A DNA stretch of 46,750 nucleotides, taken from assembly GCA_016787605.1 (NCBI GenBank), contig JAEUUE010000097.1, positions 1 to 46,750 of the forward strand, given 5' to 3'. This DNA is from Cyclobacteriaceae bacterium. Lineage in GTDB: Bacteria > Bacteroidota > Bacteroidia > Cytophagales > Cyclobacteriaceae. The notes under the pieces are model-generated. The model had not been told where the DNA came from and made no database searches. It saw only the letters and a list, made by a program, of their open reading frames with translations. The first letter of the stretch is position 1. Each line of letters begins with the position of its first letter. Positions 1,942-42,979 of this stretch are shown here, one piece after another. The position numbers and the translations under genes were made by a program.

Positions 1942-4335
1942 ATGCGATTAACCAGTCTCTTCTTGTGGATGTTGCTCTTCCCGCCTGTCCTTTGGGCACA
2001 GGAGGGTTGCACGCTGTCCATTGAGGGACACATCGTCTCTGAAAGCAATGGGCCGCTTCCGAATGCGGAAGTTCTCCTCCAGGGAACCGAACGGGGTACG
2101 ACCACGGATAAGGATGGCAACTTCCGGATCACCGGGTTATGCCATGGAGAGTTTGTGCTGGAAGTACGGTTTGTAGGATACGAAACGCAATGGATCCGGG
2201 CCGTTGCAGGCGACACCCACGTGGCCATTCAACTCCACCCGGAGTCGAAGAACCTGCAGGAAGTGGTGGTGCGGGAAAAGCACGTGCAGATAGACAAATC
2301 AACTACGTATGCCATACTGGAGGGCGCCAGCCTGGACAAGACAGCCGGCAAATCGTTGGGCGAATCGCTGAAGGCTCTGCCGGGCGTCAACACGGTGCAG
2401 GCCGGACCGGGAATCTTCAAGCCGGTAATTCATGGCGTGCACAGTCAGCGCGTACTGATTCTCAATCACGGGATACGCCAGGAAGGGCAGCAGTGGGGCG
2501 CCGAACATGCTCCCGAGATCGACCCGTTCATTGCATCCAATATCATGGTCATCAAGGATGCCGGCGCAATCAAGTATGGTACCGATGCGCTCGGCGGCGT
2601 GATCGTCGTCAATCCCGCGCCGCTGCCGGAGAAGGCCGGGTTGGGAGGAACATTGAATACCGTCATGCAGAGCAATGGACGTTCCGGCACCATTTCAGGT
2701 ATGCTGGAAGGCGGTTTGAAGAAACTGGATGGCTGGGGCTGGCGCATGCAGGGTACGGCGAAGCGCGCCGGCGACTACCATGCGCCGGATTATTCGCTGA
2801 CCAATACCGGGGTCAGCGAGTTTGACTTCTCAACGGCAGCGGGATATCACGGAGAAAAATTCGGAGCGGATATCTTCTACAGCTACTTCCAGACGGAGCT
2901 CGGTATTCTTCGCGGCTCGGCCATCAGCAACCTCGACGACCTGGTGACGGCCATGGAAAGCGAACCGCCCATCGGCACAACGAGTTTCAGCTATGACATC
3001 AACCCGCCTCGCCAGGAGGTGAAGCACAATTTGCTCAAAATCAACAGCCACTGGTCGCGACCGGGCGGTGAATGGCGGTTCCAATACGGCTACCAGTCCA
3101 ATTTCCGGAAAGAGTTTGATATCCGCCGGGCAGACTTGTCTTCGTTGCCTGCCCTGGATCTCGAATTGCGCACCCATACGCTGGAAGCGGAATACGAAAT
3201 GACCAACTCCAAGGGACAGCAGTTTTGTTTCGGGATAAACGGCATGTACCAGGACAACCGTAATGTTCCCGGAACGCAACGGATCCCCTTTATCCCGAAC
3301 TATACCTCGATCGCCGGCGGTCCCTTTGCAGTGGGCAAGTTCACTCTCAGCCAATGGACACTGGATATTGGCACCCGCTATGATGTTCGCAGCTATGAGG
3401 TGGTCGGTTTTGATTTCAAGAATACCCGATATACGTCCAGCCTCCTGTTTCACAACGTCAGTGCCTCGGCCGGCATCTCCCGCCCGCTGGACAAGCATCA
3501 GACCATCAAGCTGAATCTCAGCAGCGCGTGGCGGCCTCCCCATGTGGCGGAGTTGTACAGCCTGGGTACACACCAGAGCGCGGCGGCCATCGAGTACGGC
3601 TTGCTGCTGAATGATTCTACCAACGAGGTGATGGACATCAGTGAGGTTCCGTTCCAGTTGGAACAAGCACTGAAGGCCGTGGCTACGTACGAATATTCGT
3701 CTGAACGTTTCCAGGCGGAGGCCACGGTGTATGCCAACACGATCTTCAACTTTATTTATCTGCAGCCCCGGGGCGTGACCACCACGTTGCGTGGCACGTA
3801 TCCCTATTTCCGCTATACCCAAACCGATGCCCTGTTCGTTGGCCTCGATGCGGAGGCCGACTACACGCTCAATCCGCACTTCACACTCAATGGTAAATTG
3901 TCGTTGCTTAGCGCCACCGACATCCGTAATGATGATTACCTGGTGTTCATCCCGTCCAACCGCCTCGAGTTGGGGCTCCGCTACCAGGCGGCCAAGCACC
4001 AGTTCTACGTGGAACCCAGGGTGAACTTCGTCGCCCGCCAGCACCGGGCGCCGCGGGTGATTACGGTTCGCGAATTCCAGGAGGCCATTGACAACGGCGG
4101 GGATCCGTTGGGCGGAAGCACCAAGAACTTTGATTTCATGGAGGCCCCGCCGGGTTACGTGTTGGCGGGAATCGCCGCCGGGTATTCCTGGCCCCTGGGC
4201 GAAGGCCGGCTTGATCTTCGCGTCGCCGCGGAAAACCTGTTTAATTCCTCGTACCGCGAATACACCAACCGGCTGCGGTACTATGCTGACGATATCGGAA
4301 GGAATTTTTCTGTTTCACTTAAATACATGTTCTAA
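1942..4335 (+). CDS. TonB-dependent receptor, ZnuD-like
   Basis: 797-residue outer-membrane receptor. ATG 1942 is preferred over GTG 1885 because it starts a clean signal peptide (MRLTSLFLWMLLFPPVLWAQ). The order is a carboxypeptidase-regulatory-like domain (about 23-105), a TonB-box region NLQEVVV, a plug with GVHSQRVLILNHGIRQEGQQW and EHAPEIDPF, then VIKDAGAIKYGTDALGG, and a 22-strand-type barrel ending in the aromatic SLKYMF. The GQQW...EHAPEIDPF signature is shared with ZnuD-type zinc/haem receptors, so a transition metal is the likely cargo (inference). The stop overlaps the start of the lipoprotein gene at 4335 (TAATG), which indicates translational coupling. Confidence 0.9.
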   Translation: MRLTSLFLWMLLFPPVLWAQEGCTLSIEGHIVSESNGPLPNAEVLLQGTERGTTTDKDGNFRITGLCHGEFVLEVRFVGYETQWIRAVAGDTHVAIQLHPESKNLQEVVVREKHVQIDKSTTYAILEGASLDKTAGKSLGESLKALPGVNTVQAGPGIFKPVIHGVHSQRVLILNHGIRQEGQQWGAEHAPEIDPFIASNIMVIKDAGAIKYGTDALGGVIVVNPAPLPEKAGLGGTLNTVMQSNGRSGTISGMLEGGLKKLDGWGWRMQGTAKRAGDYHAPDYSLTNTGVSEFDFSTAAGYHGEKFGADIFYSYFQTELGILRGSAISNLDDLVTAMESEPPIGTTSFSYDINPPRQEVKHNLLKINSHWSRPGGEWRFQYGYQSNFRKEFDIRRADLSSLPALDLELRTHTLEAEYEMTNSKGQQFCFGINGMYQDNRNVPGTQRIPFIPNYTSIAGGPFAVGKFTLSQWTLDIGTRYDVRSYEVVGFDFKNTRYTSSLLFHNVSASAGISRPLDKHQTIKLNLSSAWRPPHVAELYSLGTHQSAAAIEYGLLLNDSTNEVMDISEVPFQLEQALKAVATYEYSSERFQAEATVYANTIFNFIYLQPRGVTTTLRGTYPYFRYTQTDALFVGLDAEADYTLNPHFTLNGKLSLLSATDIRNDDYLVFIPSNRLELGLRYQAAKHQFYVEPRVNFVARQHRAPRVITVREFQEAIDNGGDPLGGSTKNFDFMEAPPGYVLAGIAAGYSWPLGEGRLDLRVAAENLFNSSYREYTNRLRYYADDIGRNFSVSLKYMF

Positions 4336-28779: not shown

Positions 28780-30789
28780 CTATTTTTGTTTGCGGATAAA
28801 GATGAACTCACCACCCTCATCCCCGGTCTGTCCCACTTCGCCGTATTGAGGAACCTGGGCATTGGGGCTGTGTTCGATCACGTAGCGCTTCAGCCCGCTG
28901 AAGAGCTCTTCGGCGGTAACATAGGGTTCCTGGTTTTCGGCCAGGCGCTGCACCAGCGAACTGACGAAGACGCTGCGGTCCGGCACTTTCTCCAGGGTAC
29001 CGCTCGTCATCGCTTTCCGGCTCTTCCGGAGGTACAAGGTTTCGATGGCCGCCGAAGAACTCTCAAAGAGGGAGCGGCTCTTGAAGATGCCGCCTGAAAA
29101 GCACGCGTCTGAGATCAGCAAGGTATGGCGGGCTGGTATGCCGGCGATATAATCGCGAAGCGTGCCGTTGGAAAGCCACGACGACCGCTTGTTGGGCTCG
29201 GCATCAGAGGGAAGCCAATAGCCTTGCTCCAGCTGGGGATCCCAGTAGCCATGGCCCGCGTAAAAAATGAGCAGGTTGTCGGCCTTGTCGAGACGGCTCT
29301 GGAGTTCGTCGAACTTGGCATACAAGGTGTTGCGGTCGGGGTTCGTGACCACCGTCACGTTTTCTTCCAGGAAGGAATAGTTCTTAAGGAGAACCTCTTT
29401 CAACTTTTGGAGATCCCTCACGGGCTGATCCAGGTCGGTAATGGTGGGGTCTTTGTAATCCTGCACGGCGATGAGCATGGCATGGTATTTCTTTTCATCC
29501 ACGCTGCCGCTAAAGGGCTTTGCTTCGATGAGAAGTTTGTCTTCCAGCTTATTCCCGGCTTTGTCGGTTGCCACCAGGGTTATGGTTTGCATCGTGTTCA
29601 GGGGAATCTTCAGATCCAGGGAATACCGGTCTGTCAGCGTTTGGTCGGGCTGGAGAACCTTTCCATTGACCGCCACCTCCCTGACACCGCTGAGGTCAGT
29701 GACTTCCAGCAAGACTCGAACCGCGCTTTGATGGACCACAGACGAGCGATAGCCGGTAGCAGCGTCTTTCGTGGCCAGCAGTTTGGGGCTGAGGACGGCG
29801 ATGGTGGGAGGAGTGACGTCGAAAGGCTTCCAGGGTGTAATGTTGAGGGAAGAGCAGTCGTAGAGCGTAACGTTGGGGGAGAGATCAGCGACGGCGATCC
29901 ACTTTCCATCCAGTGAGAAAGGAGAGGCTCCTACCATCTTGCTGTGCTTATCGAGTCGCTGGACAACTTTCCCGGTAGGTTCCAGTACGACGGCGAGGCC
30001 CTGCGCAATTCCCGCTACGAGGTAACGGCCATCGGGACTGTAGTGAACATCCGTGACCCAGTCTCTCCCGGGCATGAGGGTGCTCAGCGTGGTTCCTGTC
30101 GTGATGTCCCAGATGCGTAGGGTGCGGTCGTAACTGCCGGTGACCAGGCGAGTTCCATCTTCATTGAAGGCCAAGGCACGCACCCAATCTTCGTGGCCCG
30201 AAAGCACTTTGAGGAGGTTGCCCGTTTCCACCTCCCAGAGCATGGCCGTTTTGTCGGCCGACCCCGTGGCGAGCAATCGGCCGTCTGGAGAAAACTGGAG
30301 GCTGAGAATTTTTTCAGGGCGGGAGGCCAGGGTTCTGACCTTCTCCCTCGAATGGACTTCCCAGATGCTGATGCGGCCTTCTTCATTGGAAGTGGCAAAG
30401 TGGCGCCCGGTGGGGCTGAATGTCACATCCCGGACAATCCCGGTTTCGCCGTTTACTTTCAGCACCTTGGATTCCTGGAAGTCATAGAGTGAGAAAGCGC
30501 CGTCTTCACTCGCCGAGGCCAGGTAGCGGTTGTCGTAGCTGAAGGCCAGCGCCATGACCTTGGCCTGATGCGAGGGCAGACTCCAGGTGTCACCGTTCTG
30601 CAGGTCGTGGGCAAAGAGCGAGCCTTTGTCGCCGCCTGCAATAAGCCGTTTGGAGTTGCTGGAGAAACAGAGTGTCCGCACCCCTTCGTCAAGCTGGAGC
30701 TTGAAGGGAATTTCCCGAACCTTCTTGATTTGTGCGGGCGAAAGATGGCCGGCCAGCAGCAGAATCAGCAAGAGGTATATCGTTTTCAT
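28780..30789 (-). CDS. Secreted WD40-propeller/Ig-like/caspase-fold protein
   Basis: 669 residues with signal peptide MKTIYLLLILLLAGHLSPAQ. Seven WD40 repeats (about 30-312) make one propeller; examples are LQFSPDGRLLATGSADKTAMLWEV and LAFNEDGTRLVTGSYDRTLRIWDI. An Ig-like domain follows (about 325-425, YSLDLKIPLNTMQTITLVATD). A peptidase C14 caspase-like domain (about 435-669) has the intact His/Cys dyad, FYAGH513GYW and ISDAC563FSGG. Bacterial orthocaspases usually cut after basic residues; here substrate and activation are unknown. Most WD40-caspase proteins are cytosolic signalling proteins, so secretion is notable. It is encoded 3 bases after a barrel protein, in the same operon. Confidence 0.9.
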   Translation of the reverse strand: MKTIYLLLILLLAGHLSPAQIKKVREIPFKLQLDEGVRTLCFSSNSKRLIAGGDKGSLFAHDLQNGDTWSLPSHQAKVMALAFSYDNRYLASASEDGAFSLYDFQESKVLKVNGETGIVRDVTFSPTGRHFATSNEEGRISIWEVHSREKVRTLASRPEKILSLQFSPDGRLLATGSADKTAMLWEVETGNLLKVLSGHEDWVRALAFNEDGTRLVTGSYDRTLRIWDITTGTTLSTLMPGRDWVTDVHYSPDGRYLVAGIAQGLAVVLEPTGKVVQRLDKHSKMVGASPFSLDGKWIAVADLSPNVTLYDCSSLNITPWKPFDVTPPTIAVLSPKLLATKDAATGYRSSVVHQSAVRVLLEVTDLSGVREVAVNGKVLQPDQTLTDRYSLDLKIPLNTMQTITLVATDKAGNKLEDKLLIEAKPFSGSVDEKKYHAMLIAVQDYKDPTITDLDQPVRDLQKLKEVLLKNYSFLEENVTVVTNPDRNTLYAKFDELQSRLDKADNLLIFYAGHGYWDPQLEQGYWLPSDAEPNKRSSWLSNGTLRDYIAGIPARHTLLISDACFSGGIFKSRSLFESSSAAIETLYLRKSRKAMTSGTLEKVPDRSVFVSSLVQRLAENQEPYVTAEELFSGLKRYVIEHSPNAQVPQYGEVGQTGDEGGEFIFIRKQK

Positions 30790-32871: not shown

Positions 32872-33294
32872 TTACCCTTTGCCGTACTTCTTCACCACCT
32901 CCTTGTAGCTGTCATGAATAAGCTTCTTTAGTGTGGGCTGATGGATATCGTTGAGGGTCTTGATGTGCAGACAGACACCCTTTGCTTTGTGCTTTCCAAG
33001 CTTCTTCAGCTGTTCCGTCTTCTCCTTGAAGCCTCCCATCAGGTAGATCGTGATGTTGCCTTTTCGTGGTGAGAAGGCCAACTGGGGCCAATTGGCTGTC
33101 TTTCCATTGGCATAAACAAGCGGGTAGGTTCCAAATCCAATGATCGATGTTCCCCACATAACCGCCGGAGCGCCAGAGATGGCCTCCATGATTTTGACTA
33201 GCGCCCGACAATCGTCTCGGACGGACTCTTTTTCCTGGGCATCGATGAACTTCTCCACACTGGCTTTGGTGGGTTTGGTTTTGGGTTCAGCCAT
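32872..33294 (-). CDS. DUF1801 (YdhG-like) protein, copy 1
   Basis: 140 residues, soluble. The DUF1801 fold shows in SVRDDCRALVKIMEAISG, VMWGTSIIGFGTYPLVYANGK, WPQLAFSPRKGNITIYLM and KGVCLHIKTLNDI. The biochemical role of the family is unknown. It is a close paralog of the gene at 34181-34615: the first 13 residues are identical, most of the rest aligns, and the 5' coding DNA is nearly identical, which suggests a recent duplication. Separated from the divergent DUF2490 gene by 139 bases. Confidence 0.85.
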   Translation of the reverse strand: MAEPKTKPTKASVEKFIDAQEKESVRDDCRALVKIMEAISGAPAVMWGTSIIGFGTYPLVYANGKTANWPQLAFSPRKGNITIYLMGGFKEKTEQLKKLGKHKAKGVCLHIKTLNDIHQPTLKKLIHDSYKEVVKKYGKG

Positions 33295-34180: not shown

Positions 34181-34615
34181 TTATCCTTTCTGACTTTTCA
34201 CCGGGTAAGTCTTCACCATGTACCGGTAGGTGTCGGCGATCATCTTCCGAAGGGTGGGGAGGTGCAGTCCTTCCAGTCCCTTGACATAGAGACACGATAC
34301 CGAGGTTTTGTTCTTGCCCAGTTTCGCCAACTCCTTCGCTTTCCCCTTGAACCCGTCCATGAAATAGATGGTCAGATTCTGTTTTCTCGGCGAGAAGGCA
34401 AGCACGGGCCAGTCGCCCTCGGTACCGGAAGCATAGTGGTAGTGGTAGGTGCCAAACCCCACGATGGAGGTGCCCCACATCACGGGCGGCTCGCCGGAGA
34501 TTTCCTGCATCAGTTTCACCAGCGTCCGGCAATCATCGCGCACTGACTCCTTTTCCTGGGCATCGATAAACTGATCGACGCTGGCTTTGGTAGGCTTGGT
34601 TTTGGGTTCGGCCAT
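34181..34615 (-). CDS. DUF1801 (YdhG-like) protein, copy 2
   Basis: 144 residues, paralog of the gene at 32872-33294 with the same MAEPKTKPTKASV start and the same block order (SVRDDCRTLVKLMQEISG, VMWGTSIVGFGTYHYHYASG, LAFSPRKQNLTIYFMDGFK, SCLYVKGLEGL). Function unknown. It lies downstream of the respiratory island but is separated from it by a strong terminator (34633-34673), so it is probably a separate transcript. Convergent with the DUF2490 gene. Confidence 0.85.
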   Translation of the reverse strand: MAEPKTKPTKASVDQFIDAQEKESVRDDCRTLVKLMQEISGEPPVMWGTSIVGFGTYHYHYASGTEGDWPVLAFSPRKQNLTIYFMDGFKGKAKELAKLGKNKTSVSCLYVKGLEGLHLPTLRKMIADTYRYMVKTYPVKSQKG

Positions 34616-34632
34616 GGTAATCCGTTATACCC

Positions 34633-34673
34633 TTAAAGATAAAAGAAAACGCCCGGTGGGTGGTCCGGGCGTT
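34633..34673 (-). terminator. Terminator of the respiratory island
   Basis: On the minus strand the stem AACGCCCGG pairs with CCGGGCGTT around an 8-base loop and is followed by a T-rich tail (TTCTTTTATCTTT). It lies 26 bases after the last gene of the island (stop 34699). A motif shared with the hairpin at 13.7 kb directly precedes the stem. Confidence 0.85.
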
Positions 34674-34698
34674 CGTTCAACTACTCCTAAAACCAATG

Positions 34699-35559
34699 TT
34701 ATTCAGAGAAATCGAGGGGATCGGTAGGCTTGCTCAAGCGGTGGACTTTAATCAGTTCGTAAACGATCAACCCGTAATGATACCATACGCCAACCATCAG
34801 GACGACGAAGGTGACCACCATCCACAGCGGGGCGTCGGGGCTCCAGAGGGCCCGGGGCAGTTTGGACGCCTGGGCGTCTACTTTCACACCCCAGTTGCTG
34901 ACCACAGAAGTTTCGGCATTGCCGAAGGTCTCGTGTTCTTCAATGCGGGCCACAATCGTCAATTCGCCGCTGACGCTGGAGGGCAGGTCGTTGGGGAATT
35001 TCAGTTCACCGTATCCATCCTCATCGGTGGTAATGTCGCCGATGGGTAGGAGGCTGAACATTCGCGGGACGTATACTTTCACTTCGCCTTCCGAGAAAGG
35101 AACGGCTTCACCCTTCTCATTCCAGGAGGTCACGTTCACGATGACGGTATTCACGGAGTCGATCGTTTCGGCTTTCAATTCGATGGCTACTTCCGCCAGG
35201 TCGACGGAGGCATGGTTGGTCTCGTAATTTTCGTTGCCGGCAAACGTGGCGGTGAAGGTAAAGGCATGGGCCACTTTGCGCAGGGCGTCGAAGTTGCCGC
35301 CTTTCAGTTCGGCGATACCCAATTCATTGGTGGTCGCCTCACCCAAGGCCACGGTTTGCTCGCCGGCGGTGCCTGAAAACTGGATCGTCAGGCCCTTCAC
35401 GGGTTCGCTGTTTTCATCGTCGGTGACGGTGGCTTTCATGTCTATGCCCTGGTCGCCCTTTTGCGTGGCGACCAGTTCAATGGCGATGGCCATAGGATCC
35501 TGGGCTACGGCGGAGAAAATGGCCGTAGTAATCAATATCAATGTGGCTAACGTTTTCAT
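34699..35559 (-). CDS. Exported Ig-like protein with C-terminal membrane helix
   Basis: 286 residues from ATG 35559, overlapping the NrfD stop (ATGA). Signal peptide ending FSAVAQ, two Ig/carboxypeptidase-regulatory-like beta domains (about 25-120 and 125-235; TVTDDENSEPVKGLTIQFSG and DEDGYGELKFP), then a single helix LWMVVTFVVLMVGVWYHYGL (about 243-263) and a short basic cytoplasmic tail. No cofactor motif. Coupled to the NrfD gene, it is probably a structural subunit with its bulk in the periplasm (inference). Not recognised as a named family. Confidence 0.75.
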   Translation of the reverse strand: MKTLATLILITTAIFSAVAQDPMAIAIELVATQKGDQGIDMKATVTDDENSEPVKGLTIQFSGTAGEQTVALGEATTNELGIAELKGGNFDALRKVAHAFTFTATFAGNENYETNHASVDLAEVAIELKAETIDSVNTVIVNVTSWNEKGEAVPFSEGEVKVYVPRMFSLLPIGDITTDEDGYGELKFPNDLPSSVSGELTIVARIEEHETFGNAETSVVSNWGVKVDAQASKLPRALWSPDAPLWMVVTFVVLMVGVWYHYGLIVYELIKVHRLSKPTDPLDFSE

Positions 35560-36914
35560 GACAGCGAGGGTTGGGGTTGACCGTTCGTGGCCGCTTTCGT
35601 CTGCTTTTCTTTCTCGATCATCTCTGACGTTTCCCAAATGGGCACGATGGGAATGTACTTCGAAGCCACCTTGAACAGGATCATGAACATGGCGATGCCT
35701 GCGCCGGTGAGCGCCCATTCGACCCAGGTAGCCGAGTAGTTCACGTACTCCGGCCGGATGTCCTGCATGGGCAGCAGCGGGGTTTCCAGGGTGGGCACGA
35801 TGATCAGGTAGCGCTTGAACCACATGGCAATCACCAGCAGGGCGGCGCTGAACGTAATCGTATTGATCGAGCGGAATTTCGGAATCCCGATGAGGAGGAT
35901 GGGCAACAGGATGCCCGCAAAGTTGGCGAAGTAGAACATCCATCCATACTGGTTCAAATCCATCAGCTTATGAATCAGCTCCGCGTTCCATTTCTCGGAC
36001 GTATACCAGTCGGTAAGGTATTCCGAGAAGGTGAAGTATCCATAGCCCGCAGCCATCGCGATGAGCATGTAGCCGACGTAGACAAAATGCCGTTCCTGGA
36101 TATAGGCGCCCAGGTTATGCAGCTTCCGGAAGGCATACATGAGCAGCACGAGCACACCGGTGCCGGTGTAGACGGCGGCGAGTACGAAATAGGGGCCGAA
36201 GATGGTGCTGTGCCACCCGGGCCGAAGCGTCATGCCGAAGATCCAGGAGAGCACGGAGCTCACGATGATAACCGTAGGGATGAGAAGCAACGACAACACG
36301 TTGAGCGCCAGCTTGAGGTCATGGCGCTGCATGCGGGTGTTGATGAATCCGGCCGACATGAACAGGTAGATCTTCCGTCTCCAGGCCGGCATGGTTTCTT
36401 CACTGCGTGACAGGATCGCGAAGTCGCGGATGGCCAGAAGGTAAAGGAACAGGATGCCGCCTACCAGGAAGGTCATCACCGCCACGACGTCCCAGATGAT
36501 CGGAGACTGCAGGCGGGGATAGATAAAGAGGTAGTAGAGCCGGTCCAGCCTACCGATACACAGCAAGATGTAGAGGGGGCCGATAATCACTGAAATGACG
36601 GTCATCAAGGCGGCGATCCGCATGAGCGGCTTGCGCCATTCTGCATCGAACAGGTGGAGCAGGCCGCCTACGATGGCGCCCGTGTACCCGATACCGATGA
36701 AGAAAATGAAGTTGACGATGTACACGCCCCAGATCACGTGATCGCGCATCCCGGTGACGACGTGGCCTTCCACGATTTGTACGTAGAGGGCATATAATCC
36801 AACGAGGAAGATAATCCCCCAGAAGCCGAGCCAGATCAGTTCGCGCGTTGTCCATTTGGACATCTGCGGCCAAAACTCCTTGAGCAGCGACTTCGATGTC
36901 TTCTCAATATTCAT
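35556..36914 (-). CDS. NrfD/PsrC-type membrane quinone-interacting subunit
   Basis: 452 residues with about ten membrane helices, matching the NrfD/PsrC/ActC family that exchanges electrons between quinol and a periplasmic Fe-S subunit. The N-terminus (FWPQMSKWTTRELIWLGFWG) is followed by VIWGVYIVNFIFFIGIGYTGAIVGGLLHLF, a family hallmark. It starts 7 bases after the Fe-S subunit stop and overlaps the Ig-like gene. No molybdopterin subunit is encoded in the neighbourhood, unlike Psr, Phs or Ttr complexes. Direction of electron flow inferred only. Confidence 0.92.
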   Translation of the reverse strand: MNIEKTSKSLLKEFWPQMSKWTTRELIWLGFWGIIFLVGLYALYVQIVEGHVVTGMRDHVIWGVYIVNFIFFIGIGYTGAIVGGLLHLFDAEWRKPLMRIAALMTVISVIIGPLYILLCIGRLDRLYYLFIYPRLQSPIIWDVVAVMTFLVGGILFLYLLAIRDFAILSRSEETMPAWRRKIYLFMSAGFINTRMQRHDLKLALNVLSLLLIPTVIIVSSVLSWIFGMTLRPGWHSTIFGPYFVLAAVYTGTGVLVLLMYAFRKLHNLGAYIQERHFVYVGYMLIAMAAGYGYFTFSEYLTDWYTSEKWNAELIHKLMDLNQYGWMFYFANFAGILLPILLIGIPKFRSINTITFSAALLVIAMWFKRYLIIVPTLETPLLPMQDIRPEYVNYSATWVEWALTGAGIAMFMILFKVASKYIPIVPIWETSEMIEKEKQTKAATNGQPQPSLS

Positions 36915-36921
36915 AACTCAA

Positions 36922-37872
36922 TTATTGAACGTCTTTGAATCGGGCCTTCTGGTCGTCGGTGAGGTTCTTGAATCCGCGTTCGACGGGGAACATGCGGTTG
37001 GAAGGCGGCAGGTAATACACCCGCGGCTTCGTGCCGAGTTCTTCCATGAAGCGGTAACCGGCCTTGTCTTTGATCAGCTGGCTGAACCGCACGGTTTCCG
37101 AACCGTTGGTGACGGTGTCTTCGTTTTCGTCGCCGAAGTAGAACACGCCGTTGGGGCAGGCCGTGACGCAGTCGGGCAGTTTGCCCTGGCGCACCATGTC
37201 GGGGCAGAAGTCGCATTTCTCCACCGTGCTGTGCTTGCTCGGGGTGCTCGATTCCGGGGAATAAGGCGGGCAGGTGGCCGGTTCTGTGATTTCGGGTTCA
37301 CCCCAGTTGAATACGCGCGTGGAGTAGGGGCAGCCGGCCATGCAGAACTTGCAGCCGATGCACCGTTCGTTGTCGATGAGCACGAGTCCGTCGGAGCGCT
37401 TGAACGTGGCGTCTACCGGGCAGACCTTGACGCAGGGCGGGTTGTCGCAGTGGAAGCAGGTTTTCGGGAACCAGTAAGGGGCCGCATTTTCGTTGTCTTT
37501 CATCAGTTTCACCTGCAGCCACTCTTTCTCTTCGGGAATGTGGTGCATCTTGTTGCAGGCGACAATGCACTTGCGGGCGTTTCGGCATTTGCCGAGGTCG
37601 ATGACCATCACGAATTTCCTTCCTTCGATGCCTTCGCGCCCCGTGATGGTGCGGGCCATCGTGCCGGCATGTTCGTGGGTCTCCACTTTCAGGTCGGCGG
37701 TATCGACTTCCACGATTTCACCGTCCGGGGAGAGGAGTTTTACGGTATGGTTGTGCGCGGGTTTCTTTTCATCCGGTTCGCCGAGCAATTTGGTTGCCCC
37801 GGCCACACTGGCGAGTCCTAACGCGAGCCCGGTGCGGATGAAGTTCCTGCGCTTTGAGTTACTGTTGTCCAT
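36922..37872 (-). CDS. Tat-exported four-cluster Fe-S subunit (PsrB/NrfC-like)
   Basis: 316 residues from ATG 37872. Twin-arginine signal KRRNFIRTG. An N-terminal module (about 43-86, VKLLSPDGEIVEVD...TGREGIEGRK) is shared with the 81-residue protein at 37907. The ferredoxin part has Cys groups C96/C102/C106, C139/C142/C147/C151, C171/C174/C177/C181 and C220/C223/C235/C239. The first group reads C-R-N-A-R-K-C, so the second expected Cys is Ala99; this cluster may be altered. It is the electron relay on the periplasmic face of NrfD. Tat export with cofactor in place is expected. Confidence 0.92.
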   Translation of the reverse strand: MDNSNSKRRNFIRTGLALGLASVAGATKLLGEPDEKKPAHNHTVKLLSPDGEIVEVDTADLKVETHEHAGTMARTITGREGIEGRKFVMVIDLGKCRNARKCIVACNKMHHIPEEKEWLQVKLMKDNENAAPYWFPKTCFHCDNPPCVKVCPVDATFKRSDGLVLIDNERCIGCKFCMAGCPYSTRVFNWGEPEITEPATCPPYSPESSTPSKHSTVEKCDFCPDMVRQGKLPDCVTACPNGVFYFGDENEDTVTNGSETVRFSQLIKDKAGYRFMEELGTKPRVYYLPPSNRMFPVERGFKNLTDDQKARFKDVQ

Positions 37873-37906
37873 GGTGTCGTTCGTTTTACGTTGGCACTTA
37901 CCCTGG

Positions 37907-38152
37907 TCACACGCCGGCATCCAATTCAGGACCCTTGCGCCATTCGAGGATCTCCCGGTTGGTCACCTTCTTTTTGGGTGCCTTGGCCAGTACGGCCTTG
38001 TCTACTTCCACCAGCTTGCCGTCGGGCGTAAGCATCTTGACGGTTTCCCCGCTTGTGGAAGCCTGGGCGGCCAGGGGCGCGCCCGTGGCGGCCGCGGCGG
38101 CGAGAAGTCCCTTTTTGAGGAAGTCTCTACGGTTGGTGGGTTGGTCTTTCAT
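37907..38152 (-). CDS. Small Tat protein, copy of the Fe-S subunit N-module
   Basis: 81 residues. Tat motif NRRDFLKKG and an Ala-rich h-region, then VKMLTPDGKLVEVD and TNREILEWRKGPELDAGV. These align with VKLLSPDGEIVEVD and TGREGIEGRKF of the adjacent Fe-S subunit, so it appears to be a free-standing copy of that N-terminal module. It has no cysteines and no cofactor motif. It may be a subunit that replaces contacts normally made by a catalytic subunit, or an export partner (inference). It lies between the DUF5777 barrel and the Fe-S gene. Confidence 0.75.
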   Translation of the reverse strand: MKDQPTNRRDFLKKGLLAAAAATGAPLAAQASTSGETVKMLTPDGKLVEVDKAVLAKAPKKKVTNREILEWRKGPELDAGV

Positions 38153-38162
38153 GGTCTTCCGG

Positions 38163-39041
38163 TTAGAAGTTCCAGAGTCGGGTAATGTTGAAGCCCATGA
38201 GGAACTGACTTTCTCCCCACTTCAGCTTGTTGTACATCACGTTCTCCTGGGGCAGGATGCCCTGGTAGTTGCTGAAGAAAATCTGGAAGGCGTGGGCGCT
38301 GGTGGCGATTTCCCAGCAAATGGCCAGTCCTGGTTCCGGGTTCAGCTTGGAATCCTTATGGCTCATCAGGGGCTGCACGTAGTTGATGATGATGGAGGAC
38401 TGCGCAGAGAACTTGTAGCGAGCGCCGATGCCGACAGCGAACATGTCGTTGCTGTACAGCGTGTCTACGGCATTGTAGTGTGTAAAGCTCGGGCTGATCT
38501 GGACCGAGATTTTGGAATTGATCCGCCGGGCGATGATCAACTCATTGTAAAAAGACAGGCGGTGGAGTTCTTCCTTGTAATTCCCGGCCTGGGTATTGGC
38601 TACCACGTTGCCGTAGTAACTCACGCTTACCGGCATGCCTTGCTCTTTGGTCTGGCGGAAGATGGCATACTTGGCATTGAGGTCAAGCGCCATTTTGTTG
38701 CGCGTCAGTCCGATGCCGACGGCCAGGCGATCCATGGGCGTGTAGGTGAGGCCCATGCGAATGTTGGCTCCCGGTGCATAGATTCCGTAGAAATCGGTCA
38801 GCCCGTTTTCTACCGTACCGAAGCGGTGCTGGAAGTCCCACTCGAGGGTCTTCGGGGTTTGAACCATCACCGATTGCATTTCACCGAGCAGGGCGCTCTC
38901 GAAGGCAGGACGGGCAAGTTCCTTGGTGCTGGATTTGGCTTCTTCCTGGTTCTGGTCCTGGGCCAGCGCAGGGAGGGAGAGCATGAGGAGGATCAGGAAG
39001 GAGACAACCTTCATCGACCCGGTTAATTGGTTTGTTTTCAT
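38163..39041 (-). CDS. DUF5777 outer-membrane beta-barrel
   Basis: 292 residues from ATG 39041 (alternative ATG 39014, which gives the tighter signal peptide MKVVSFLILLMLSLPALAQ). The mature part runs WDFQHRFGTVENGLTDFYGIYAPGANIRMGLTYTP and strands up to FLMGFNITRLWNF, a typical C-terminal aromatic barrel end. DUF5777 proteins accompany cytochrome and YceI genes in Bacteroidota; the function is not established. Within this operon it may bring the haem lipoproteins to the outer membrane or act as a porin (inference). Confidence 0.85.
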   Translation of the reverse strand: MKTNQLTGSMKVVSFLILLMLSLPALAQDQNQEEAKSSTKELARPAFESALLGEMQSVMVQTPKTLEWDFQHRFGTVENGLTDFYGIYAPGANIRMGLTYTPMDRLAVGIGLTRNKMALDLNAKYAIFRQTKEQGMPVSVSYYGNVVANTQAGNYKEELHRLSFYNELIIARRINSKISVQISPSFTHYNAVDTLYSNDMFAVGIGARYKFSAQSSIIINYVQPLMSHKDSKLNPEPGLAICWEIATSAHAFQIFFSNYQGILPQENVMYNKLKWGESQFLMGFNITRLWNF

Positions 39042-39069
39042 ATCGTTTTGCGTCGCGTTAGGTTTGGGG

Positions 39070-39441
39070 TTAATTGTCAAGAGCGCCTTGTTGTATCCAC
39101 TTGAGTACGATGTCGGCATCGCCGGGATTACAGAATTTGGCCATGGAGCCTGAGCTCATTTTGAGATATAACTGGCTCTGTTCGGGCAAATCGGTATCGA
39201 CATACCCGAAAACGATCAGGCTGGTGTAAGCGTTGGCCGTAGTCAGGTCGGGGGCAATGCCGCCGGTTGCATGGCAGCCCGAGTTATCGCAACGGGCGTC
39301 AAAGATGGGAAGTACGTTAGCGCTGAAGCTGACGGAATCGGGCACCTCGACCGGTACGGGATCGTTCTCGTGGTACGTGCAGGATGACACGCCGGCGCCG
39401 AACGCCACGGCCAGCACGAGGAAGAAAAGTATCTTTTTCAT
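39070..39441 (-). CDS. Cytochrome c-like lipoprotein with CX4CH haem motif
   Basis: 123 residues. Lipoprotein signal ending VSSC21, followed by TYHENDPV, nearly the same as the mature N-terminus of the next gene upstream (C-TYYENEPV). The haem attachment site is C51-DNSG-C56-H57, four residues between the cysteines instead of two. A likely distal Met is in SSGSMAKFCNPGD. The ATG overlaps the stop of the EB_dh gene (TAATG). A short electron carrier tethered to a membrane leaflet. CX4CH sites occur in some Bacteroidota and Planctomycetes cytochromes. Confidence 0.85.
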   Translation of the reverse strand: MKKILFFLVLAVAFGAGVSSCTYHENDPVPVEVPDSVSFSANVLPIFDARCDNSGCHATGGIAPDLTTANAYTSLIVFGYVDTDLPEQSQLYLKMSSGSMAKFCNPGDADIVLKWIQQGALDN

Positions 39442-40703
39442 TACGGTTTCGGTTTGAAGGTGAGCGTCTGGTTGTTGCTGCCGACCTGGTTGATCAGGTC
39501 GTTGTCACGTACGGAGAAATTGAATGAGTAGGTGACGGTGGCCGGGTTCAGCGTAATATCGTCGGTCTGGCTCGTGTTGAGCGCGCGGACCAGGAGAACC
39601 GTGTATTTCTTGCTGTTGTAATGCGGAATGTTCGCGATTACAACGCTGGATACAGCATGGATGTCGGCGCTGCTGCCGGAAGGGTTCTGCAGATAGTAAC
39701 CCGGGATGCCGCTGAATGCACGGAGGCGGGCAAACAGGTTGACGCGGTCGGTTTCACCGGCCGGGTAGTGTACGGAACCTTCGTGGTTGGGGCCGGGACC
39801 GAATTCGTCCAGTGCGGCACGGGTCCAGCGGTTGAATTGACCGGGTTCGTTGACGCGGATCCCTGTCTCATATCCCGAAGGAGTTCCTTCGCCGTTGCCG
39901 GTCGGACCATGGCAGGGGGCGCACTCAAGCTGGTAATAAGCCTCGCCGGCTACGATATCGCCGGTAAATGTCTTTTTGTTCAGGAGGAAGTAGCCGGGGT
40001 CCAGGATGGTTGAGCCGGCCGGTTTCCGGGTGAGTTGTTGTTGTGCGTCGTTCCATTCGTATTGCGGGCCGCCGCGGTTGTCGCTAACAGCGTTGCGCAC
40101 ATACATCACGGTGCCGGCATCGTTGGTGGCACCGCTTCCGTTGTCAATCATGTCGATGGCGTATCCCATCGGTTCGGAAAGAGCAAGCGACCAGTTCCAC
40201 ACGTCGCGCTTGCCGCTGCCCATGTCAAAGGAGAGAAGGAAGTTGTCCGAAGCCCGTTGACTGGTCCAGCCGCTGGTGCTGCCGGCCTTGTTCGGGTCGG
40301 TAGGCCCGTCGTAGATCCAGTTGCTGTGGGAGGCATCGGCCGTGGTGTCTTTCCACACGACCAGTACGTAGAGGCTGTCGTCGGTGTAGGCGGCCTGCAG
40401 ACGCACGTCAGGGTCTTTGCCTTTTCCAAAGCTGGTAAGTCCGCCAAACGTACCGCTCATGTTGAAGAGTCCGTCGGCAGCCTGAACCTGGCCGGTAACC
40501 TGGTTCTGCTCCGTCAAGGGTAGGTAATCGGCCGTCTTCCAGTATTTCGACGTGACTTTGTTCGGCGCTTCAGTCACATACTTGGCCTCAAGGGTGGTAG
40601 TGGGATCCGACTTCTCGGGAACGGGGGCCTTCACCGGTTCGTTCTCGTAGTAGGTGCACCCGGTAGCCAAGAGACATAAGAGGGCTGTACGAAGGGTCTT
40701 CAT
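39441..40703 (-). CDS. Lipoprotein: EB_dh haem domain with inserted cytochrome c domain
   Basis: 420 residues. Lipobox LLATGC16. Residues about 50-235 look like the N-terminal part of an ethylbenzene-dehydrogenase gamma-type (EB_dh) haem domain: VRLQAAYTDDSLYVLVVWKD, ASDNFLLSFDMG and DVWNWSLALSEPMGYAIDMI with candidate Met ligands. A cytochrome c domain follows with C-A-P-C-H at 261-265 and QFNRWTRAALDEFG. The last strands (YTVLLVRALNT...YSFNFSVRDND) match the C-terminal part of EB_dh, so the c domain appears inserted in it. No Met occurs after residue 200, so the c haem cannot have Met as sixth ligand. Probably dihaem. Confidence 0.82.
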   Translation of the reverse strand: MKTLRTALLCLLATGCTYYENEPVKAPVPEKSDPTTTLEAKYVTEAPNKVTSKYWKTADYLPLTEQNQVTGQVQAADGLFNMSGTFGGLTSFGKGKDPDVRLQAAYTDDSLYVLVVWKDTTADASHSNWIYDGPTDPNKAGSTSGWTSQRASDNFLLSFDMGSGKRDVWNWSLALSEPMGYAIDMIDNGSGATNDAGTVMYVRNAVSDNRGGPQYEWNDAQQQLTRKPAGSTILDPGYFLLNKKTFTGDIVAGEAYYQLECAPCHGPTGNGEGTPSGYETGIRVNEPGQFNRWTRAALDEFGPGPNHEGSVHYPAGETDRVNLFARLRAFSGIPGYYLQNPSGSSADIHAVSSVVIANIPHYNSKKYTVLLVRALNTSQTDDITLNPATVTYSFNFSVRDNDLINQVGSNNQTLTFKPKP

Positions 40704-40729
40704 AGTGGTAAGTAAGGGTTTATCTCGGA

Positions 40730-40737
40730 AAAAGATA
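40730..40737 (-). promoter_or_regulatory. Possible -7 box of the EB_dh operon
   Basis: TATCTTTT on the minus strand, one base off TAnnTTTG, 26 bases before ATG 40703 and just after the terminator of the YceI-lipoprotein gene. Weak by itself. Confidence 0.35.
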
Positions 40738-40740
40738 GTT

Positions 40741-40772
40741 AAAAAAAGGGGGTCAGAACAGACCCCCTTTTT
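40741..40772. terminator. Bidirectional-looking terminator
   Basis: Stem GGGGGTC (40748-40754) and GACCCCC (40761-40767), 6-base loop, flanked by seven A on one side and five T on the other. On the minus strand it ends the YceI-lipoprotein transcript (stop 40784) and separates it from the EB_dh operon. Confidence 0.85.
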
Positions 40773-40783
40773 CGGTCGTCAGC

Positions 40784-41881
40784 TTACAGTTGCTTGTAGC
40801 AGACTATGCTGAGTTGCATGCGAACGATGGCGTCATTCAAACTGCTGGAAGTGATTCCCCACTTGTTCTTGGCATCCATAAGGAATTTGCCTTCGAAACC
40901 GGTATAGCGGCGGTTGTTGGAAGGGTCAGTCCATGCCGGAACTTGTTTGAACCACATTTCAATGGGTACGGTAAAGCCGTGGAACACCAGGTTGCCTTTG
41001 GCAATGTAACCGTCACCATATTTGGCGATCGAAGAGCTTACGAAAGTAGCATAGCGGTCAACGTCCGTAGTTACAGTCTTCGGGGCGCCGTCGGTCGGAG
41101 CCACTCCGTCGTCGGTGGCGATGCCAAATACCGTGTTTACGATGCAGCCATATTCGGTGAACTGAGTGATCGGGCTGAACAGCGGGGAGTCAGCAACCGT
41201 CGTACGAGGGTCGCGACCACCGGGGCTGCGAGTGTCAAAGCTCATCAGGTCAACGGATACGTCGATGGAGCTGGTAGCGGGGTTGGCCACGTCAAAGTTG
41301 ATGTCCACTTTGTTGAGTTGAGAGAAGGTACCAGTGAAGTCAGCTTCTTTTCCGCGATACGCAAATTCAAAGTTGATAGGGCTGTGGGTGGCATCATAGG
41401 TCCATGCGCCAGTATTGGCGAAAGCGGACGTTCCGTTCCAGGCGTAGTTGATGTCAATGATATCAAGGTCGGCGCCGGCTTGACCTACAGTAACCAGGTT
41501 GAGGTCAACGGCTTGGTCGGCCGAAGTCATCGTTACCGTTACATCAGAAGCGGTGGAGAAATTCAGCCCGTCAAGGCGTCCACCGGTGTGGCTCGGCTTG
41601 GCGTAATAGGTGCCGGAAAGGGCATATTCGCCAGCGGCCAGTTCGGGGAAAGTAAACTTACCCGTTGCATCGGCTACAACCACCTGGACGGTGCTGGCGC
41701 CGGAGAGAAGGGTAATGTAAGCGCCGGGAGCGGCTACGTTCGTACCCGCGCTGTTCGGATAGAAGGCTGTTCCGGAAAGGGTGCCGAGCGTTACAGGATC
41801 ACTTTTACTGTCGCTGCAGCGAACTACCGAAAGGAAGACGAATACCAGGGTTAACAAGGAAACGATTCTTAGTGCTTTCAT
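40784..41881 (-). CDS. Lipoprotein with Ig-like and YceI-type domains
   Basis: 365 residues from ATG 41881 (41893 is an in-frame alternative). The signal leads to VVRCSDSKSD, an unusual lipobox with Cys and an acidic stretch. Residues about 35-130 form a carboxypeptidase-regulatory-like beta domain (ATGKFTFPELAAGEYALSGTYYAKPS). Residues about 140-365 form a YceI-like barrel (SPINFEFAYRGKEADFTGTF, NKVDINFDVANPATSSIDVSVDL, GNLVFHGFTVPIEMWFK, FEGKFLMDAKNKWGI). It may bind a quinone-like lipid (family knowledge). Three FNR-like boxes precede it and a strong terminator follows, so it is its own transcript. Confidence 0.8.
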   Translation of the reverse strand: MKALRIVSLLTLVFVFLSVVRCSDSKSDPVTLGTLSGTAFYPNSAGTNVAAPGAYITLLSGASTVQVVVADATGKFTFPELAAGEYALSGTYYAKPSHTGGRLDGLNFSTASDVTVTMTSADQAVDLNLVTVGQAGADLDIIDINYAWNGTSAFANTGAWTYDATHSPINFEFAYRGKEADFTGTFSQLNKVDINFDVANPATSSIDVSVDLMSFDTRSPGGRDPRTTVADSPLFSPITQFTEYGCIVNTVFGIATDDGVAPTDGAPKTVTTDVDRYATFVSSSIAKYGDGYIAKGNLVFHGFTVPIEMWFKQVPAWTDPSNNRRYTGFEGKFLMDAKNKWGITSSSLNDAIVRMQLSIVCYKQL

Positions 41882-41919
41882 AGGAGTAGACATTTTTAGT
41901 TGGCGATAGAAATCATGAC

Positions 41920-41927
41920 CGAAAGTA
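41920..41927 (-). promoter_or_regulatory. Possible -7 box of the YceI-lipoprotein gene
   Basis: TACTTTCG on the minus strand, one base off TAnnTTTG, 38 bases before ATG 41881. It is supported by its distance to the TGAC-N4-GTCA boxes just upstream. Confidence 0.35.
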
Positions 41928-41938
41928 CTCCCGGACGA

Positions 41939-41984
41939 TGACCGCGGTCATGACAAACGTCAAAGGCCCCAATGACTCTAGTCA
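41939..41984. promoter_or_regulatory. Three TGAC-N4-GTCA boxes, CRP/FNR-like operators
   Basis: Perfect inverted repeats at 41939-41950 (TGACCGCGGTCA), 41951-41962 (TGACAAACGTCA) and 41973-41984 (TGACTCTAGTCA). The geometry equals the core of FNR/FixK-type sites (TTGAY-N4-RTCAA). If the TACTTTCG box is used, their centres lie near -30, -42 and -64, close to class II and class I activator positions. The regulator is not in the window. Confidence 0.6.
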
Positions 41985-42020
41985 GAGCCAGGAAAAGCTC
42001 TATAAAGACTTGATAGTAAG

Positions 42021-42569
42021 CTATTTGAAAGAATAGCGAATCACCGACCGGAGAAGAATTTCCGGCATGGAGAGCGACATTCCCGGTCGTTGGACAGCCA
42101 ACTGGGGCCCTGAGGTTCCGGTTAGAACCGCGTTGCCCTGCTCAAGATGGTAGACATTCACGAGGTATTCGGGCTCGGTGTCGTTATTGATGTAGAGGTC
42201 GATGGTGACCAGGTATTCCCCGCCGCCAATCCAGGGTCTTTCGGACTTGGGCAGCAGCCGGTGAAGTTGGGTATGGGGTGAGATCAGGCTGTCGGGGGGT
42301 ACCTGGGCATCGGGCGGAAAGGCCCGGTAGTAGGGCCAGGTGCGGCTGGACCCGGGGGTGAAGGTATACTTATATAAAGGTATTTCGCGGTCCAGCAGGG
42401 CCTTGGCTTCTGCGCAGTTGGGCCCCCCGGTGGGGCAATTGACCTCAAAATAGAAGATTTTGGAGGTCGCGTACTTACCCCCATCAGCAGGCTGCCCCCC
42501 GCATCCCGCCAGCAAGACGAAGATGAGGGGGGCAGTCAGGTTACGTATAGTTGCCCCGAAAAGGCTCAC
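42021..42569 (-). CDS. Lipoprotein of unknown function
   Basis: 182 residues with a lipoprotein signal ending FVLLAGC followed by GGQPADGG. The mature part contains a CPTGGPNC pair of cysteines (possible disulfide) and beta-rich segments (GGEYLVTIDLYINNDTEPEYLVNVYHLEQG). No family recognised. It starts 8 bases after the cytochrome c stop, so it is co-transcribed with that gene. A partner of the cytochrome or of the YceI lipoprotein is possible, without direct evidence. Confidence 0.65.
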   Translation of the reverse strand: MSLFGATIRNLTAPLIFVLLAGCGGQPADGGKYATSKIFYFEVNCPTGGPNCAEAKALLDREIPLYKYTFTPGSSRTWPYYRAFPPDAQVPPDSLISPHTQLHRLLPKSERPWIGGGEYLVTIDLYINNDTEPEYLVNVYHLEQGNAVLTGTSGPQLAVQRPGMSLSMPEILLRSVIRYSFK

Positions 42570-42577
42570 TGTACGGC

Positions 42578-42979
42578 TTATTTCTTAAAGGTGCGCATGT
42601 AGTGAACCAACAGCCAGCGGTCGTTGTCGTCCGCGATCTTCTTGTCGTAAGCCGGCATGTCGTCGCGGCCAAAGGTGGTCTTATAGAAGAGTTCACCATC
42701 AGACTGTCCCTGGAAGGCTGCGCTTGAGAAGTCTCCGCACTTGGTGTCCAGCTCTTTTGCTTTCGGACCGTCGCCCAAGCCTACTTTGCCATGGCAGGAC
42801 TTGCAGTGCTTGTCATACAGCTGCTTGGCAATGTCCATGTCGTCTTTGGAGGCCTTGGTGGGGTTTTCCATCTTCTTGTACTTGGCAGGCACTTCCCAGG
42901 GCTGCTGGATCGTGGTAAAACTGAAGGCGGTCAGGAGCATGCCGGAAAGAAGGATCAGGGTGAAGGTATTCGGTTTCAT
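42578..42979 (-). CDS. Periplasmic monohaem cytochrome c
   Basis: 133 residues with signal peptide MKPNTFTLILLSGMLLTAFS. Class I cytochrome c: haem site C59-K-S-C62-H63, GKVGLGDGPKAKEL, distal Met in FGRDDMPAYDKKI, and the C-terminal helix DDNDRWLLVHYMRTF. A small soluble carrier that could take electrons from the island's NrfD/Fe-S or EB_dh proteins to a terminal oxidase or reductase (inference). First gene of the minus-strand island, followed by the unknown lipoprotein. Confidence 0.92.
   Translation of the reverse strand: MKPNTFTLILLSGMLLTAFSFTTIQQPWEVPAKYKKMENPTKASKDDMDIAKQLYDKHCKSCHGKVGLGDGPKAKELDTKCGDFSSAAFQGQSDGELFYKTTFGRDDMPAYDKKIADDNDRWLLVHYMRTFKK

Follow-up and report, generated by a model that had tools for sequence, protein, structure and literature searches.

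We analysed a stretch of 46,750 nucleotides from a Cyclobacteriaceae bacterium (GenBank assembly GCA_016787605.1, contig JAEUUE010000097.1), here called the window, in which ten minus-strand genes running from position 42979 down to 34699 form a respiratory island that holds core and haem-protein genes together. We put at roughly 0.55 the probability that this island encodes a molybdenum-free menaquinol:cytochrome c oxidoreductase. Its predicted core, which is conserved in relatives, consists of an iron-sulphur (Fe-S) protein, an NrfD-type membrane protein, a protein with an immunoglobulin-like (Ig) domain and a cytochrome c.

In the mechanism that we propose, NrfD would bind and oxidise menaquinol on the periplasmic face of the inner membrane, and the electrons would travel along the four clusters of the Fe-S subunit (which carries a twin-arginine translocation (Tat) signal) to the monohaem cytochrome c. 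The Ig protein, with its transmembrane segment, would be a structural subunit on NrfD, perhaps docking the cytochrome. From there electrons would reach periplasmic or outer-membrane acceptors that vary by genome, such as an oxidase or nitrous oxide (N2O) reductase. In genomes that have it, an exchangeable second module, made up of haem lipoproteins and a DUF5777 barrel, would receive them too. We infer the direction of flow, the subunit contacts, the identity of the [3Fe-4S] cluster and the final acceptor; the complex may also conserve energy in the manner of ActC or QrcD.

Core genes and the molybdopterin partner

Relatives were collected as 79 distinct loci from the best 80 of 577 matches, all with Bacteroidota titles except one titled just 'bacterium', and neighbourhood counts take in only loci with enough flanking sequence. 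NrfD adjoins the Fe-S gene in 76 of 76 loci, and the Ig protein stands next to NrfD in 70 of 70 (fused genes counted). Of 67 loci, 65 have a monohaem cytochrome c close to the core: 59 carry it behind the Ig gene and 6 only upstream, like the window, where the cytochrome is the first gene. The gene for a small Tat protein is present in 50 of 76. Over all loci, distance correlations are highest within the Fe-S/NrfD/Ig trio (r 0.77-0.90, against 0.63-0.90 within the whole core), and the trio stays tightest in loci with an adjacent DUF5777 gene (r 0.70-0.83). The search for co-occurrence in other genomes that the original prediction had proposed thus shows the four-gene core kept and the outer haem genes variable.

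Searches with twelve molybdopterin proteins, and with a profile made from these that recovers its own members at >630 bits, found no molybdopterin gene in any of 88 sources, namely the window itself, the 79 loci and 8 others. The carrier genomes examined are the window's own and the genomes behind 36 of the 79 loci. A PF00384 gene occurs somewhere in 31 of these 37 and is missing at E <= 0.001 from the other 6, where it should be considered that the completeness of the carrier drafts is mostly unstated (the L098 record is titled chromosome). The only PF00384 gene of the own genome is on another contig (C28) and bears Fer2 and NuoG-type Fe-S domains at its N-terminus, an arrangement that we take to be that of cytoplasmic formate dehydrogenases. 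The claim that the Fe-S and NrfD subunits come without a molybdopterin enzyme is thereby borne out. A molybdopterin oxidoreductase conserved beside the cluster in relatives had been named as the finding that would speak against it, and none was found. Two more distant cousins (L176 and L177) do have a molybdopterin protein beside a related Fe-S/NrfD pair. In L176 this cluster contains NapA (958 bits) and a DsrP-type NrfD (420 bits). Both cousin clusters also hold two four-CXXCH proteins, and their class is that of the window; in the L176 genome NosZ is found ~6-10 kb from the NapA/Fe-S/NrfD cluster.

NrfD and Fe-S subunits compared with known complexes

A search of the PDB with the window's NrfD returned only ActC chains at E <= 0.001 (7e-45 to 9e-37). 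A profile of the island NrfD proteins likewise scores ActC highest (243-271 bits), followed by DsrP (114-138), ActF (47) and HybB (17), and gives no match to Escherichia coli NrfD at 1e-4. According to PMC8076601, Ser164 and Asp169 of ActC are quinone-site residues, with roles also given for His139 and Asp253. The first two align with Ser137 and Asp142 of the window protein, each kept in 75 of 75 NrfD sequences, which agrees with the earlier proposal of a quinol module. Membership of the NrfD/PsrC superfamily is indicated by the same conserved serine and by a PF03916 match over the cut-off.

In phylogenetic trees the island NrfD proteins fall into two supported groups (100 and 96 in the Shimodaira-Hasegawa-like approximate likelihood ratio test), outside a supported ActC clade (99 and 100 in two trees). 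A single clade of both groups has a support of 51 in one tree, with two changes in the other. For these trees redundant rows were thinned, and fused and out-of-length NrfD proteins were left out except that of L005; the tree program itself cautions against trusting the long branches that lead to ActF, HybB and NrfD. The Fe-S proteins of the island group together (support 95, in a tree without seven ActB rows that missed the motif pattern), and their profile scores DsrO at 144-174, NrfC at 123, ActB at 72-99 and HybA at 75 bits. Judged by these comparisons, the pair is a mosaic whose membrane part resembles ActC and whose Fe-S part resembles DsrO.

NrfD and the Ig protein are joined in one open reading frame in 8 of the 79 loci (titled Bacteroidales or Bacteroidetes), each of them closest to the larger of the two NrfD groups. 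A ninth fusion, from a further genome (L175), belongs to the smaller group, and at least two fusion events must therefore have occurred. Since the two are fused in two lineages, there is good evidence that NrfD and the Ig protein function in contact. A gene for a Crp/Fnr-type regulator (one member scanned) adjoins the core in 7 of the 8 fused loci.

The Fe-S protein was originally described as a four-cluster protein. The four motifs are indeed there, with 15 cysteines invariant in 84 of 84 aligned relatives, but the second cysteine of motif I is absent from all 84 (Ala in 80, Leu in 3, Glu in 1). Because this one position is lost while the other 15 are invariant, the protein probably holds three [4Fe-4S] clusters and one [3Fe-4S] cluster. 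Motif I presumably binds the cluster farthest from the membrane, as in NarH and DmsB. Loss of this cysteine was considered as a mark of molybdenum-free complexes and rejected, as the NapA-linked cousins L176 and L177 share it. Many Fe-S relatives also have a cysteine shortly behind the Tat signal, in the columns at window residues 41, 46 and 49 (45-54 of 84 in any one column), where the window protein has none. This suggests that the relatives concerned are Tat lipoproteins.

Of the known systems, alternative complex III shares several features with the island. Both have an ActC-like NrfD with the quinone-site serine and aspartate, and in most relatives the order Fe-S protein, NrfD, anchored protein and cytochrome mirrors ActB-C-D-E in the alternative complex III of the own genome (not in the window, where the cytochrome comes first). 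PMC8076601 gives for ActB three [4Fe-4S] clusters and one [3Fe-4S] cluster, equal to the complement predicted here. The missing cysteine differs, however: the ActB rows seen lack the second one of motif III instead of that of motif I. In addition, alternative complex III has the pentahaem ActA, a molybdopterin-like domain in ActB, ActF and ActD, whereas the 332-residue island Fe-S protein has no such domain, ActA and ActF are not among the ten genes (those of the own genome lie in a separate alternative complex III cluster on contig C53) and the Ig protein stands instead of ActD. Compared with solved chains, the monohaem cytochrome matches c552 at 1e-16 and ActE at 3e-6.

DsrO of DsrMKJOP is the nearest named family of the Fe-S protein, yet the island pair stays under the curated cut-offs (DsrO 177 of 200 bits, DsrP 61 of 350), and the aligned DsrO rows, as well as those of NrfC and HybA, keep all motif cysteines including the one lost from motif I. 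NrfCD of the Nrf nitrite reductase is a molybdenum-free Fe-S/NrfD pair that feeds cytochromes. The island resembles it in being such a pair and differs from NrfABCD in its NrfC score (124 bits against a cut-off of 378) and in that no NrfA was found in the island. Qrc differs as well, with QrcC at 118 of 400 and QrcD at 48 of 570 bits, both below the curated cut-offs, and so do PsrABC-type complexes by their molybdopterin catalytic subunit (0 of the 88 sources). The NapA-linked pair of L176 and L177 is similar in its Fe-S protein without the second motif-I cysteine and in the haem proteins adjoining it, and different in that L176 carries NapA and a DsrP-type NrfD. None of the NrfD groups in the accessible part of PMC8076601 is a molybdenum-free Bacteroidetes group with Fe-S protein, Ig protein and cytochrome. 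A literature search, with most subscription journals outside its coverage, found no description of this cluster and no mention of DUF5777.

Outer-membrane module and nitrous oxide

The original prediction held that haem lipoproteins replace the catalytic subunit. A haem lipoprotein of any kind stands within 6.5 kb in 42 of 52 loci (L098 was scored without them, yet has them just past this limit). EB_dh types are nearby in 13 of 52, and in 43 of 52 a DUF5777 gene lies no more than 6 kb from the Fe-S gene. As stated, the replacement claim is not supported, or in part at most, because the cytochrome and the Ig protein are more constant than the haem lipoproteins. Other haem proteins by the core are EB_dh proteins without CXXCH and proteins with two CX4CH motifs. 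In 13 loci we found a lipoprotein-like protein with 5-9 CXXCH motifs, some upstream of the CX4CH gene and others after the core, and the one that was scanned matches MtrC-like domains.

In a sample of 395 genomes of the phylum, DUF5777 is present in 146 and the Fe-S gene (E <= 1e-50) in 10. Of 14 loci inspected that have DUF5777 but not the core, all have a YceI gene nearby, 12 a cytochrome lipoprotein and 4 an OB-fold protein; one of them (L126) has neither a cytochrome lipoprotein nor a Rieske lipoprotein. Given that DUF5777 is commoner than the Fe-S gene and keeps its YceI and cytochrome partners without the core, the DUF5777 set is best seen as a self-standing module, probably redox-active and at the outer membrane, that is joined to the core. 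In line with this, distance correlations over all loci are 0.90 between DUF5777 and the CX4CH protein, against 0.24-0.44 between the core and the outer module. Co-evolution in two strict blocks was rejected, since the signal is strong over all loci and much weaker in the set with adjacent DUF5777; it is kept as partial support. A split Cyc2 (cytochrome plus barrel) was rejected too: no fusion occurs among the DUF5777 matches listed, and next to the longest frame in them (448 amino acids, in L174) the cytochrome is a separate gene. Two side observations concern such sets elsewhere. In L118 (8093-8527) a Rieske lipoprotein takes the cytochrome's place beside DUF5777 and YceI, and the own genome has two more DUF5777 genes with YceI and cytochrome lipoproteins on contigs C33 and C170 (L112 and L113), the cytochrome in L113 bearing SprB repeats.

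Electron transfer to the outer membrane, as originally suggested, is possible. Taken further, the island might be an outward conduit in which electrons run from quinol through Fe-S/NrfD and the CX4CH and EB_dh lipoproteins with DUF5777 to an acceptor at the cell surface. The frequent proximity of haem lipoproteins and DUF5777, the presence of DUF5777 within ~4 kb in all 10 carriers of the sample and the 13 loci with proteins of 5-9 CXXCH motifs would fit this. MtrCAB is a porin-cytochrome conduit, and the window likewise combines a barrel, a haem lipoprotein and an inner-membrane quinol enzyme, but its barrel is small and the partners are single-haem proteins. The DUF5777 domain (247 positions) is by estimate too small for a conduit of MtrB size, most genomes with DUF5777 lack this Fe-S protein (146 against 10 of 395), and in the 7 loci that have a fused NrfD-Ig gene and sufficient flanking sequence, neither DUF5777 nor a haem lipoprotein lies nearby. 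We regard such a surface conduit as unlikely.

We rate as equally unlikely the idea that the island is a dedicated electron donor for nitrous oxide reductase, in bacteria that respire N2O but for the most part have no nitrite reductases. In its favour, NosZ is found in 10 of the 10 carriers of the sample (own genome included) against 118 of 385 other genomes (128 of 395 overall; Fisher 1e-5, or 0.002 when stratified by family, a figure from hand-typed counts with 23 genomes unlisted). Among the 37 carrier genomes NosZ scores over the cut-off in 27, with NirK in 3 (2 over the cut-off) and NirS in 1 (both were counted in carriers only). On the other hand, 10 of the 37 have no NosZ over the cut-off (six of these Bacteroidales), the own nos cluster is on a different contig (C171, the island being on C43) with a lipoprotein cytochrome of its own, and a shared low-oxygen niche explains the association equally well. 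Since 118 of 128 NosZ genomes in the sample are without the cluster, the island as general NosZ donor was rejected as a rule. The association is hence a lead on lifestyle, not proof of function. PF00115, the haem-copper oxidase family that also takes in nitric oxide reductases, is represented in 35 of the 37 carriers.

Several points weigh against the preferred reading of a menaquinol:cytochrome c oxidoreductase with an exchangeable outer module. ActC His139 and Asp253 are replaced by Cys119 and Ile225 in the island NrfD, and the quinone site therefore differs. Locus L090 has no nearby cytochrome, and L067 has one only behind a second Fe-S/NrfD/Ig set. In the loci with adjacent DUF5777, the Fe-S protein correlates almost equally with DUF5777 (r 0.53) and with the cytochrome (0.56), so that the claim of a separate module rests mainly on presence and absence. 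The electron flow could also be reversed, an outer-membrane haem protein taking electrons from outside and the core passing them to quinone, much as Qrc draws on periplasmic donors. QrcCD, which reduces menaquinone according to PMC13059093, sets a precedent, and NrfD matches QrcD weakly (47.6 bits against a cut-off of 570). We consider inward flow quite improbable, given that Pfam and NCBIfam scans recognised no electron-donating enzyme in the cluster and that a c552-type monohaem cytochrome would probably sit at too high a potential to pass electrons to menaquinone.

Locus layout and meaning

The genes, with families assigned by Pfam and NCBIfam, are listed in the table. From 42979 to 34699 they are spaced by 8, 127, 80, -1, ~28, 10, -14, 7 and -4 bases. 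The nine genes originally named are all open on the minus strand where they had been placed; that list omitted the Ig-like gene at the end, although its range did begin at 34699.

Table. Features of the respiratory island, in the order of transcription (positions in the window).
Feature	Position	Strand	Support
Monohaem cytochrome c, core subunit; one CXXCH, signal-like N-terminus	42578..42979	-	Cytochrome_CBB3 5.7e-10, 40 bits
Unknown lipoprotein, 182 amino acids	42021..42569	-	relatives in loci L033, L035, L040
YceI-domain protein, N-terminal CarboxypepD_reg-like region	40784..41893	-	YceI 43.5 bits
EB_dh lipoprotein, one CXXCH	39441..40703	-	EB_dh 45.8 bits
CX4CH cytochrome lipoprotein	39070..39441	-	lipobox and CX4CH read in sequence
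DUF5777 outer-membrane barrel	38163..39041	-	DUF5777 4.3e-76, 256 bits; start inferred at signal peptide Met
Small Tat protein, like N-terminal region of Fe-S protein	37907..38152	-	Tat signal
Tat Fe-S protein, DsrO-like, 332 amino acids	36922..37920	-	DsrO 177 bits (cut-off 200)
NrfD-type membrane protein, ActC-like	35556..36914	-	NrfD PF03916 95 bits (cut-off 25.8)
Ig-like (Big_1) protein, C-terminal transmembrane segment	34699..35559	-	Big_1 1.1e-5, below curated cut-off
Terminator-like hairpin, just 3' of last gene	34647..34674	-	10 pairs, 7 G-C

The 182-residue lipoprotein matches no family in the Pfam and NCBIfam scans. The protein described earlier as a YceI lipoprotein does have the YceI domain, but no canonical lipobox can be read in its sequence. 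Both cysteines and the histidine of the CX4CH motif are kept in 34 of 34 aligned cytochrome lipoproteins. For the DUF5777 gene the most likely start is close to 39041 and not at 39119, and the small Tat protein shares one BLAST cluster with the Fe-S proteins. The Fe-S protein of the window matches Fer4_11 and other 4Fe-4S models of Pfam, and a crude scan gives 10 hydrophobic segments in NrfD. The Ig-like protein begins with a hydrophobic signal-like segment, and its gene shares its first 4 bases with the end of the NrfD gene; the frame of 414 amino acids listed there is a mechanical extension, and the gene was taken as 34699-35559. The hairpin is weak by itself (10 terminator-like sites in the region against 9.8 expected from shuffles), promoter-like sites are fewer than in shuffles, and an Rfam search gave no match. 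The layout goes beyond chance, because relatives keep the same arrangement.

Further observations concern the surroundings. A minus-strand gene at 28780-30789 combines WD40 repeats with a caspase-like Peptidase_C14 domain. Next to the island, two closely similar DUF1801-type genes (32872-33294 and 34181-34615, minus strand; the family was assigned by scan for the second copy only) flank a DUF2490 gene and are likely a duplication. In L130 (~2000-4100), repeated short-peptide frames near the core cluster resemble a CRISPR array.

More broadly, and only tentatively, we propose an unnamed family of Bacteroidota quinol:cytochrome c oxidoreductases in which an ActC-like NrfD is combined with an Ig subunit and an Fe-S protein of DsrO type. 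They would take outer-membrane haem modules (EB_dh, CX4CH or MtrC-like) as plug-ins and would serve N2O reducers, mostly without nitrite reductases, in tapping menaquinol. The common DUF5777 barrel gains a redox setting from its association with the core. If the preferred reading is true, a molybdenum-free NrfD complex without a multihaem subunit of its own would join the known NrfD complexes and would show how small an Fe-S/NrfD module can become without losing the link from quinol to cytochrome c. For N2O-reducing Bacteroidota, this reading supplies an electron route that can be tested.

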